A stretch of 64,000 nt of DNA from Gammaproteobacteria bacterium (lineage in GTDB: Bacteria > Pseudomonadota > Gammaproteobacteria > Ga0077536): NCBI GenBank assembly GCA_009692365.1, contig SHZJ01000001.1, forward strand, positions 1-64,000. The letters run 5' to 3'. Each line of letters starts with the position of its first letter. Position 1 is the stretch's first letter. The notes below the pieces were generated by a model. That model was not told the DNA's origin. It was given only the letters and a program-made list of their open reading frames with translations, and did not search any database. Shown piece by piece: positions 52,553-55,674 of this stretch. A program made the position numbers and the translations under genes.

Positions 52553-54379
52553 TTATTTGGCGGTGGCGTCGCCTGCGGGCGGCACGACCGACAGCACTTC
52601 GGTAAACGTGGTTTTGCCGGCCGCTATCTTCGCCGCCCCAGATAGTCGTAGGGGCCGCATGCCGTCACGCACGGCGGCCTCGCGCAGCGCGTTAGTTTGC
52701 AGGCCCGGTTTCACCAGCGTCTGCAGCGCTTCAGAGAGGGTTAGCACTTCGTAGAGGCCGACGCGCCCGCGAAAACCCGTATGACGACATTCAACGCAAC
52801 CCGCCGCCACCTGCATTCCCGTCGGTTGAGCCAGCCTCGCGCTACCGACTAACGTTGACCACGCGGTGCGGTCCAGCGGCACGCTACGCTGACAGTGCGG
52901 ACACAGTGTGCGCACCAGGCGCTGGGCCAGCACGCCCAACAGCGTTGCTGCGATGAGATAGGGTTCGACGCCTAAATCCATCAGGCGCGTCACGGCGGCG
53001 GGCGCATCGTTGGTGTGCAACGTTGAGAGCACCAAATGCCCCGTGAGTGCGGCCTGGATCGCCACCTCCGCCGTTTCACGGTCGCGAATTTCGCCGATCA
53101 TGATGATGTCGGGGTCTTGCCGGAGGAGCGTTCTGACCCCGTTGGCGAAGCTCAGGTCTAAGCCCGGCTGGATTTGCATCTGATTGAAAGTGGGCTCGAC
53201 CATCTCGATCGGGTCTTCGATGGTGCAGACGTTGATTTCTGGGCGAGCCAGTTGGCGTAACGCCGAGTACAAGGTGGTGGTTTTGCCCGAACCGGTCGGG
53301 CCGGTCACTAAGATGACGCCGTGTGGATGGCGGGTGAGCGCCAGCCAAGCGGCGAGGTCTTCGTCGCCAAAACCCAGCGCGGCAAAGGGTTGCTCCAATT
53401 TTTCAGGGTCGAAAATGCGCATCACCAGTTTTTCGCCGAAGGCGGTGGGCATGGTCGATAGCCGGAGTTCCACTTCTTTACCCAGGGGGGTTTTAGTTTT
53501 CATGCGGCCGTCCTGCGGCCGTCGTTTGTCGGCGACGTCGAGTCGACCCAGCGTTTTGATCCGGCTGACAATGGCGCCGATCACGGGGGTCGACATCTGA
53601 TTCACGAGATGCAAAAGACCGTCGATGCGAAATCGGATATTCCCTTGTTCCCGGCGGGGTTCGATGTGAATGTCGCTGGCGCGTTGCTCAAAAGCATACT
53701 GGAGCAGCCAATCGACCAAGTGCACAATGTGGCGGTCGTTGGCGTCTGGTTCGCCAACCTCGCCCAAGTGGGTAAGCGCCTCGAGGTTTTCGACGATGCT
53801 GCTGCGCTCGGCAACCTTGCTGGTCATCGCCTTGTTGATGGAACGACTGACCCCGTAGAACTCACGCAGGTAGCGCCGAATTTCGAGCGGATTGGCCACT
53901 ACCCGCTTAATCTGCCGTTTAACGATCGGCGCTATCTCTTGTTCCCATTCGGTGATAAAGGGCTCCGCAGTGGCGATCACAATGTGCTGGTCGCCGACTT
54001 CGACCGGTAAAAATTGCCAGCGAGTGGCATAAGCTTGGGACACGAGCGAGGTGACCGACTCGACCTCAATTTTCAGTGGGTCGATGCGGCAATAAGGCAA
54101 ATCCACGCACTCGGCGACTAACCGGGTGACGGTTTCGAGCGTTAGCGCGAGGCTAGGTTCGGAATCACTGCGCAGATTTTGGGCCGCCAACTGCGCAAAC
54201 GGGTGGCGTTGGTCGTTCTGTGCGATCCCGAGGCGCAGGCGCTGGACGGTGCTCGCCGCCAACCAGCCCTTGCGCTGCAAGAGCAGCAGCACTTCCTCTA
54301 GCGTGAGCGTATGCGCTGGCGGTGCCCCTGCTTTCGCCGCGCCGGCGGCGGGCATCGGCGGTCGCTGGTTGGCGCTCAT
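52553..54379 (-). CDS. GspE/PilB-family secretion/pilus ATPase
   Basis: GPTGSGKTTTLYSAL, Asp box, His box LVLSTLHTNDAPAAVTRL, CPHC..CVECRHTG zinc motif. Confidence 0.94.
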   Translation of the reverse strand: MSANQRPPMPAAGAAKAGAPPAHTLTLEEVLLLLQRKGWLAASTVQRLRLGIAQNDQRHPFAQLAAQNLRSDSEPSLALTLETVTRLVAECVDLPYCRIDPLKIEVESVTSLVSQAYATRWQFLPVEVGDQHIVIATAEPFITEWEQEIAPIVKRQIKRVVANPLEIRRYLREFYGVSRSINKAMTSKVAERSSIVENLEALTHLGEVGEPDANDRHIVHLVDWLLQYAFEQRASDIHIEPRREQGNIRFRIDGLLHLVNQMSTPVIGAIVSRIKTLGRLDVADKRRPQDGRMKTKTPLGKEVELRLSTMPTAFGEKLVMRIFDPEKLEQPFAALGFGDEDLAAWLALTRHPHGVILVTGPTGSGKTTTLYSALRQLARPEINVCTIEDPIEMVEPTFNQMQIQPGLDLSFANGVRTLLRQDPDIIMIGEIRDRETAEVAIQAALTGHLVLSTLHTNDAPAAVTRLMDLGVEPYLIAATLLGVLAQRLVRTLCPHCQRSVPLDRTAWSTLVGSARLAQPTGMQVAAGCVECRHTGFRGRVGLYEVLTLSEALQTLVKPGLQTNALREAAVRDGMRPLRLSGAAKIAAGKTTFTEVLSVVPPAGDATAK

Positions 54380-55674
54380 GAGTGTTTAGGCGGGTGCACT
54401 AATCGTTCCGTGGCGCTGTGTAACCGGGCGATGAGCGCCCGCAGAAAGCTGCGTTGGAAGCGATTCTGGGTAATGAGTGACATGCGTTCGATCAGCGAGC
54501 TCCCGATTTTGAGCAGCGTGACTGCCGTGAGTGCCACGATATTAGCGCTGCGTCTGCGGCCGGACACCAGGCCCATTTCGCCGAAACATTCACCGGCGTG
54601 CAGTTGGACAATTTCCAGCGCATTTTTCTGCACCGCGACGCTGCCCTCTACGAGCACGAAAAAATAGGTGTCGAGGTCTCCCTCGGTGATGATCTGGTCG
54701 CCTTGGGCGGACGTCTGCCACTCGGCGGCGTGCACAATCTCCCAGAGGTCTTCCTCGGCGAAACTCTGAAAAAAATCGAGCTTGGACACCGCCGCAAATT
54801 TTTTCTGAGGGGAGACCCAAGTGGGGTTTTCTGGCAGGAAATCAAAAACGAGGGATAGGTCGCCGGCCAGATCGGCGCCGGATTTATAGCGATGGCCGGG
54901 GTTTTTTGCGAGGAGTTTCTCGATGATTCGTTGATATATATCGGGCACTTCGACGCGGAAATCGGCCAGCGGTGGCGGCCGCTGCGGCGCGTTGTGCTGT
55001 CTTAGGTCAGCGCTTTGGGTCAGGAAAGGCTGCTTGCCCGTGAGCAACTGGTAGGCCACCACCCCCAACGAATAGAGGTCTGTTTGCGCGTTTGCGGGGC
55101 CGTCGCGGAATTGTTCTGGCGCCTGGTACGGGCTGCAGCCGGCCGCGGCCCTCGGTGCGCCGGCGGGCGTCGATTTGCTGATGGCGCCGCCAAAATCGGT
55201 GATCTTCACCTGCAATAGTTCACTGACCAGCACGTTGCTGGGCTTGATGTTTTGATGGATCACACCCCGCCGGTGGGCGTAGTCCAAGGCCAGCGCACAT
55301 TGCGTCAAAACCCGCGTGGTTTCCGTTAGAGGGAGCAGCCGCTCAGCGACAACATAATCCTCCAGAGAGTGTTCACCGGGCACGAACTCCATCGCGATAT
55401 AGTAACGGTGCTCTTCGATTCCCGCATCGAAAATAGTGGTGATATTGGGGTGCCGGAGCGCGCCGGCGGTTTGCGCATCGTTGAAAAACCATGCCCGTTG
55501 GGCCGCTGCCTCCGCGCCTTGGTCGTCTGCCGTGACCAGCGAGACCTTCAGCGCGACTTCACGATCGATGAAGGGATCGCGGGCCAATAAAACATCGGCG
55601 ATCGGGCTGATGCCGAGACGGCGAATAATGTGGTACTTGCCCAGCTGCGTGCCGGCGCGATCGGTGGTATCCAT
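54376..55674 (-). CDS. Ser/Thr-kinase-like protein (probable pseudokinase) with C-terminal cyclic-nucleotide-binding domain
   Basis: Kinase fold with VALKV Lys and ITDFG, but loop HQNIKPSN; C-term CNB domain HAGECFGEMGLVSGRRRSANIVAL; 4-nt overlap with GspE/PilB gene. Confidence 0.9.
   Translation of the reverse strand: MDTTDRAGTQLGKYHIIRRLGISPIADVLLARDPFIDREVALKVSLVTADDQGAEAAAQRAWFFNDAQTAGALRHPNITTIFDAGIEEHRYYIAMEFVPGEHSLEDYVVAERLLPLTETTRVLTQCALALDYAHRRGVIHQNIKPSNVLVSELLQVKITDFGGAISKSTPAGAPRAAAGCSPYQAPEQFRDGPANAQTDLYSLGVVAYQLLTGKQPFLTQSADLRQHNAPQRPPPLADFRVEVPDIYQRIIEKLLAKNPGHRYKSGADLAGDLSLVFDFLPENPTWVSPQKKFAAVSKLDFFQSFAEEDLWEIVHAAEWQTSAQGDQIITEGDLDTYFFVLVEGSVAVQKNALEIVQLHAGECFGEMGLVSGRRRSANIVALTAVTLLKIGSSLIERMSLITQNRFQRSFLRALIARLHSATERLVHPPKHS

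Follow-up and report, generated by a model that had tools for sequence, protein, structure and literature searches.

Organization of the locus

The window analyzed here is a stretch of 64,000 nucleotides from a gammaproteobacterial genome. Its minus strand carries at 54376..55674 a gene for a protein of 432 amino acids (P0001), which its translation, its Pfam matches and the comparison of 24 orthologues identify as a predicted pseudokinase with a cyclic-nucleotide-binding (CNB) domain. The protein kinase domain is PknB-like and comprises residues 14–263 (54886..55635, minus strand). It matches the Pfam model Pkinase (PF00069) with 126.2–127.7 bits (E 2e-36, Pfam cut-off 31.7), as is expected of a Hanks-type fold. 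The kinase fold is complete in the AlphaFold2 model (pLDDT 83.5, pTM 0.71), whose best Foldseek match is PknB of M. tuberculosis (TMt 0.90). Among the PDB sequence matches the kinase domains of the PknB/StkP type are nearest, and chains of PKG are found as well.

The CNB domain comprises residues 323–397 (54484..54708, minus strand; PF00027 cNMP_binding, 54 bits, E 1.7e-14, Pfam cut-off 27.5). The phosphate-binding cassette of this domain, AGECFGEMGLVSGRRRSA, lies at 54544..54597 on the minus strand, and its residues G361, C363–M367 and R375 are invariant in the 24 orthologues. In P0001 the cassette reads CFGEMGLVSGRRRSA and has both hallmarks of the CNB family, FGE (as FGEM) and RxA (as R375–S376–A377). 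The first-pass annotation, made from the letters of this stretch, had described the domain as compatible with cNMP binding. The invariant cassette supports this description, class III cyclases are encoded in the genome, and the CNB domain is likely to bind a cyclic nucleotide.

Directly 3′ of the pseudokinase gene follows a tfpB-like gene (52553..54379, minus strand) for a pilus assembly ATPase of 608 amino acids with MshEN and T2SSE domains (T2SSE 419.5 bits). The two genes overlap by four nucleotides, as had been noted before; stop and start share the sequence ATGA at 54379–54376. The ATPase reaches 844.9 bits with the TfpB model NF053534 (5 bits under the curated cut-off of 850), compared with 506 bits for the GspE model and 498 bits for the PilB model, and the other assembly ATPases of the same genome score 382–429 bits against the TfpB model. 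Since the TfpB model scores best by far, the ATPase would belong to the TfpB group rather than to a generic GspE/PilB group. The earlier designation as GspE/PilB ATPase would be too general in this respect. TfpB is the second pilus-extension motor of Acinetobacter baylyi, where efficient extension requires TfpB together with PilB (PMC8213720).

A family by family search of the window's genome revealed that a canonical PilB is encoded as well (G000:C14, 789.5 bits, cut-off 675.65), with a pilC-like and a pilD-like gene after it, so that the TfpB-like ATPase and PilB coexist. Also present are gspE, accompanied by gspF-like and secretin-like genes, two further ATPases of the assembly type that have GspF-like partners, and three ATPases assigned from score and length to the PilT/PilU type. 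On the signalling side there are three class III cyclase matches, 21 CNB stretches and at least three kinase-CNB paralogues whose HRD is intact; the paralogues examined are not adjacent to an assembly ATPase. With these gene sets both a supply of cyclic nucleotides and a pilus machinery are plausible. A class III cyclase (L223:1436-2350) appears by eye to have a C-terminal FHA-like domain and is a possible cNMP source.

Several observations concern the other kinase genes. Pairs of kinase-CNB paralogues recur in many relatives, and in one of them, G007, they flank a glucose-6-phosphate isomerase-like gene (L222:3711-8129). A protein of 1308 amino acids, GGDEF/EAL-like by eye and with a long Gly-Val repeat region, is encoded directly before a kinase-CNB paralogue in an overlapping frame (L221:347-4273). 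Another kinase of the window's genome, in a long protein of ∼600 residues, has HLDLSPNN at the position of HRDxKPxN, i.e. the Asp is kept and the Arg is lost (L007:1501-2241).

Active-site residues

The catalytic loop of P0001 reads HQNIKPSN (H140–N147, 55234..55257, minus strand) according to both the orthologue comparison and the codons, which are ATC CAT CAA AAC ATC AAG CCC AGC AAC. The codon AAC at 55251–55249 specifies N142, and the catalytic Asp is thus replaced by Asn; in addition the Arg of HRD is gone (Q141). The glycine loop LGISPIADV (55591..55617, minus strand) is degenerate when compared with IGxGNMAxV of the active relatives. As the active orthologues have GxGNMA and not GxGxxG, Ala is the ancestral residue at the third Gly position, and the middle Gly alone was lost. 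The Glu of helix αC is changed to Asp (D66, NDA for NEA, 55477..55479, minus strand), a replacement found in the HQN group (see below) only. The β3 lysine K43, which corresponds to Lys72 of PKA and is part of VALKV, is encoded at 55546..55548 (minus strand) and is kept in all 24 orthologues. The metal-binding motif DFG (D160, 55189..55197, minus strand) is kept in P0001 and reads NFG in the HRQ group. Altogether, of the residues which characterize an active kinase P0001 has K43, N147 and D160 and does not have the HRD Asp, the glycine loop and the αC Glu.

The first-pass annotation had recognized the HQN loop with its AAC codon at 55249–55251 as well as the persistence of VALKV and DFG. Its remark that the glycine loop is without GxGxxG correctly described a degenerate loop; the reference, however, should have been the ancestral form GxGNMA. 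The αC replacement D66 and the loss of the HRD Arg had been overlooked.

Distribution of the gene pair

Orthologues of the kinase were searched for in 36 genomes of the order, the window's genome counted, and were found in 21 of them, all in one family. Where the contigs reach far enough the locus is shared: rplS, a glutaredoxin/GST-like gene and xerD lie on one side, tfpB directly 3′ of the kinase gene and dsbC on the other side. In 24 genomes kinase gene and tfpB share the strand and are spaced by −29 to +54 nt. In G005 and G028 tfpB is kept next to dsbC and no kinase gene lies between them (the G028 contig ends inside tfpB), so that the kinase is cleanly absent in these two relatives (L214:1-7501, L215:1-5542). 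In ten more genomes of the family the kinase query found no match at the threshold applied, and no close TfpB was found in these ten or in G003, G004 and G021. The first 30 residues, and with them the glycine loop, are missing from the orthologue of G001 (L107:1501-2694), which has an in-frame TGA; this may be a truncation or a sequence error.

We also sampled 276 genomes of the class, 75 of which have a TfpB match, and 60 of these loci were read. A kinase-CNB gene lies directly upstream of tfpB in three (G137, G150, G250, from two other families) and does not adjoin tfpB in the remaining 57. A general pairing of kinase and tfpB across the class is therefore rejected. Given these 57 loci and the two relatives described above, TfpB does not need the kinase. 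The kinase-CNB architecture itself is commoner than the pair, as 62 of 369 class genomes have a match at E < 1e-60, and these matches have HRD wherever the motif pattern is readable.

Predicted loss of catalysis in one clade

HRD, the αC Glu and DFG are intact in 17 of the 24 tfpB-linked orthologues. The catalytic Asp is lost in the other seven, all from the window's genus, which fall into an HQN group (the window's genome G000, G011 and G012), an HRN group (G009, G010) and an HRQ group (G013, G014); two further species of the genus, G007 and G008, have HRD. In the TfpB tree, which does not depend on the kinase sequences, the seven Asp-less genomes form one clade (100/99) which is sister to G007 and G008. 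Because the seven form a single clade, the Asp was lost once, on the stem of this clade, and several independent losses need not be assumed. After this single loss, as the motifs of the groups are read here, the other parts of the active site are eroded separately in each group. The HQN group acquired the αC Asp and HQ, the HRN group has the loop HRNLNCGN without the loop Lys, and the HRQ group has the loop HRQLTGTN and lost the glycine loop, the Asp of DFG (NFG) and APE.

HQN is not an accident of sequencing or assembly, since it occurs in three species and the Asp is gone in seven. An occurrence in this one sequence only, which the first-pass annotation had named as one of two findings that would refute its proposal, is hence not what we see. 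Its assignment as a pseudokinase is upheld by seven monophyletic species without the Asp, a syntenic locus and HRD in 17 relatives, and the presumed catalytic death of the clade is well supported. This evidence from the orthologues for a loss of catalysis is more than a single sequence could show. The first-pass annotation had also suggested seeing whether HQN is conserved where GspE/PilB co-occurs. It is not: the 17 orthologues with HRD reject HQN as a hallmark of tfpB-linked kinases in general, and judged from the same alignment the kinase stood beside tfpB before catalysis was lost.

Selection on the reading frame

All seven Asp-less reading frames are full length. Pairwise dN/dS values were calculated according to Nei–Gojobori and are rough, as several dS values are near or above 1. 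For the kinase domain they are 0.08–0.24 between dead kinases (upper bounds < 0.4) and 0.02–0.17 between live ones, for the CNB domain 0.12–0.23 and 0.04–0.32, respectively, and for tfpB 0.01–0.17. The reading frame is under purifying selection, and a pseudogene is disfavored by these ratios and by the full-length frames. The CNB domains of the dead proteins are by dN/dS no more constrained than their kinase domains, and the CNB domain as a whole diverged quickly.

Of the sites which are nearly invariant among live kinases, all seven dead ones retain 20 of 44 in the catalytic/activation segment and 70 of 101 elsewhere (Fisher p = 0.009), so that the losses are concentrated in this segment; the 70 include 18 of 23 sites in the CNB domain. 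Invariant in all 24 orthologues are K43, the metal-binding N147, E331, G361, C363–M367 with E366, and R375. Within the dead clade the kinase branches sum to ∼4.8 times the TfpB branches (summed printed lengths), as against ∼1.5 times in the rest of the tree, i.e. relative to TfpB the dead kinases evolve ∼3 times faster than the live ones. The pattern fits a protein that would have shed catalysis and kept its fold, its nucleotide site and its cNMP pocket.

The TfpB alignment of 605 columns has five columns that switch between the live-kinase and the dead-kinase clades, and only at column 313 (Thr to Ala) is the switch towards the residue which dominates in kinase-free TfpBs. Where a live kinase is linked, 14 of 16 readable TfpBs have Thr. 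The residue is Ala in the window (A313 in PTAFGEK, 53441..53443, minus strand) and in all seven TfpBs with a dead kinase, likewise in G005, which has no kinase, and in 88% of the kinase-free TfpBs. G002 and G006 are exceptions with a live kinase and yet Ala. Column 313 is a weak candidate phosphosite and, being picked post hoc with few events and two exceptions, only a lead.

Proposed mode of action

We infer that P0001 is a lineage-specific pseudokinase with a CNB domain which is tied to a pilus motor gene and has a regulatory role. Our preferred explanation, for which we judge the reasons for and against to be about balanced, is that the protein is specific to the genus, has an intact cNMP pocket and regulates TfpB without phosphorylation. 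The ancestor would have been a cyclic-nucleotide-responsive Ser/Thr kinase in a single chain, encoded beside tfpB, whose catalytic Asp was then lost once in one clade of the genus. The pseudokinase probably still binds nucleotide through the β3 Lys, Asn147 and DFG, and the intact CNB pocket may sense cAMP or cGMP. Pseudokinase and TfpB would be produced from the same transcript by coupled translation, and cNMP bound at the CNB domain might alter the contact of the pseudokinase with TfpB. In this way the bound pseudokinase would probably adjust when the second extension motor works, in whichever direction and without phosphorylation. TfpB is taken as the target because of the conserved linkage and the overlapping genes. 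The same linkage, limited as it is, speaks for the regulator of the ATPase that the first-pass annotation had proposed. It seems, then, that an enzyme of signalling was turned into a sensor without catalysis next to a pilus motor. In favor of this explanation are the same-strand pair in 24 genomes, the fixed linkage and the retained CNB cassette; against it are the two genomes that dropped the kinase and kept tfpB, the 57 loci elsewhere without the kinase and the faster evolution of the dead kinases. A more specific and rather improbable version is that a cNMP-gated kinase once phosphorylated TfpB, perhaps at Thr313, and became in this one genus a subunit of the motor that senses cNMP and works independently of phosphorylation, the phosphosite changing to Ala in the same clade.

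The threefold faster divergence, the different motifs lost in different groups and the outright deletion in G005 and G028 would also be expected if the dispensable kinase were a relic on its way out, kept for the time being by some weak constraint, residual or structural, or because translation of tfpB is driven by its own. We consider this doubtful, although it deserves some weight: seven full-length frames with dN/dS far below 1 argue against it, as does the invariance of K43, N147 and the CNB cassette in the three groups despite their divergence. Alternatively, the pseudokinase may act on other partners, for example as allosteric partner or decoy of the intact kinase-CNB paralogues, its position beside tfpB being historical. 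Such paralogues exist in the genome and most tfpB genes elsewhere are without such a neighbor; nevertheless the pair has been kept at one locus across the family and is also paired in three genomes of two other families, and the paralogues examined sit elsewhere with none beside an assembly ATPase, which makes this proposal unlikely.

Catalytic explanations have to be considered as well. The HQN group retains the Lys, Asn, DFG and the Lys of the catalytic loop, and HER3, which has Asn for Asp, shows weak trans-autophosphorylation in vitro (PMC4718504), so that P0001 might have a low residual activity and still phosphorylate TfpB or itself. We regard this as very unlikely, as the glycine loop and the αC Glu of P0001 are altered too, and as the loop has changed still more in the sister groups (HRNLNCGN; HRQLTGTN with NFG and without APE), which argues against conservation of activity within the clade. 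The kinase fold might also carry out a reaction of a new kind, such as the AMPylation or glutamylation of SelO or SidJ; this has precedent (PMC12599244) and would agree with the kept nucleotide-binding residues. However, we saw no newly invariant residue in the active sites of the clade and the motifs differ among the three groups, and we find this hardly credible.

Comparison with known systems

A literature search for pseudokinase-CNB proteins with PilB, CNB-bearing kinases and TfpB with a kinase returned nothing that describes the kinase-tfpB pair. The ATPase resembles TfpB of A. baylyi in scoring best with the TfpB model and in coexisting with a separate PilB; it differs in being slightly under the curated cut-off, and the paper does not mention a kinase (PMC8213720). 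CpiA, PilZ and FimX are likewise proteins that adjust a pilus-extension ATPase, but they are not kinases and the target of CpiA is PilB and not TfpB (PMC11656802). The cAMP route to pili described in the same review runs via gene expression (PMC11656802). If P0001 indeed acts on TfpB, cAMP or cGMP would be linked directly to the pilus motor at the protein level, and this would suggest what regulates the second extension motor.

The nearest solved kinase domains by sequence and fold are those of the PknB/StkP-type Ser/Thr kinases, from which P0001 differs by having no PASTA domains, a C-terminal CNB domain and no catalytic Asp. PKG also combines kinase and CNB in one chain; PKG is active and its CNB domains precede the kinase, whereas P0001 has one CNB domain after a dead kinase. 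Bacterial pseudokinase families with a Hanks fold and lost motifs have been reviewed (ActPs1-3, GLW, CP1, DYD, DLHK and EssB/YukC; PMC12599244), and EssB works in a secretion machine (PMC12599244). The review mentions neither cyclic nucleotides or cNMP nor pili, and the loss described here is confined to one genus. The birth of a bacterial pseudokinase is well resolved here, with a single locus and a single partner gene, both live and dead versions in one genus, and one inactivation after which the groups eroded separately.

For the mechanism the closest analogy, and no more than an analogy in view of their eukaryotic receptor/JAK context and their lack of a CNB domain, is with HER3 and JAK JH2. 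These have lost the Lys72–Glu91 pair, have Asn for Asp166 and keep Lys72 and Asn171, and they bind ATP and work non-catalytically (PMC4718504); HER3 binds ATP with one cation and acts through allosteric contact (PMC4718504). P0001 likewise has Asn for Asp166, an altered Lys72–Glu91 pair and both Lys72 and Asn171, and shares with HER3 in addition the retained Asp184.
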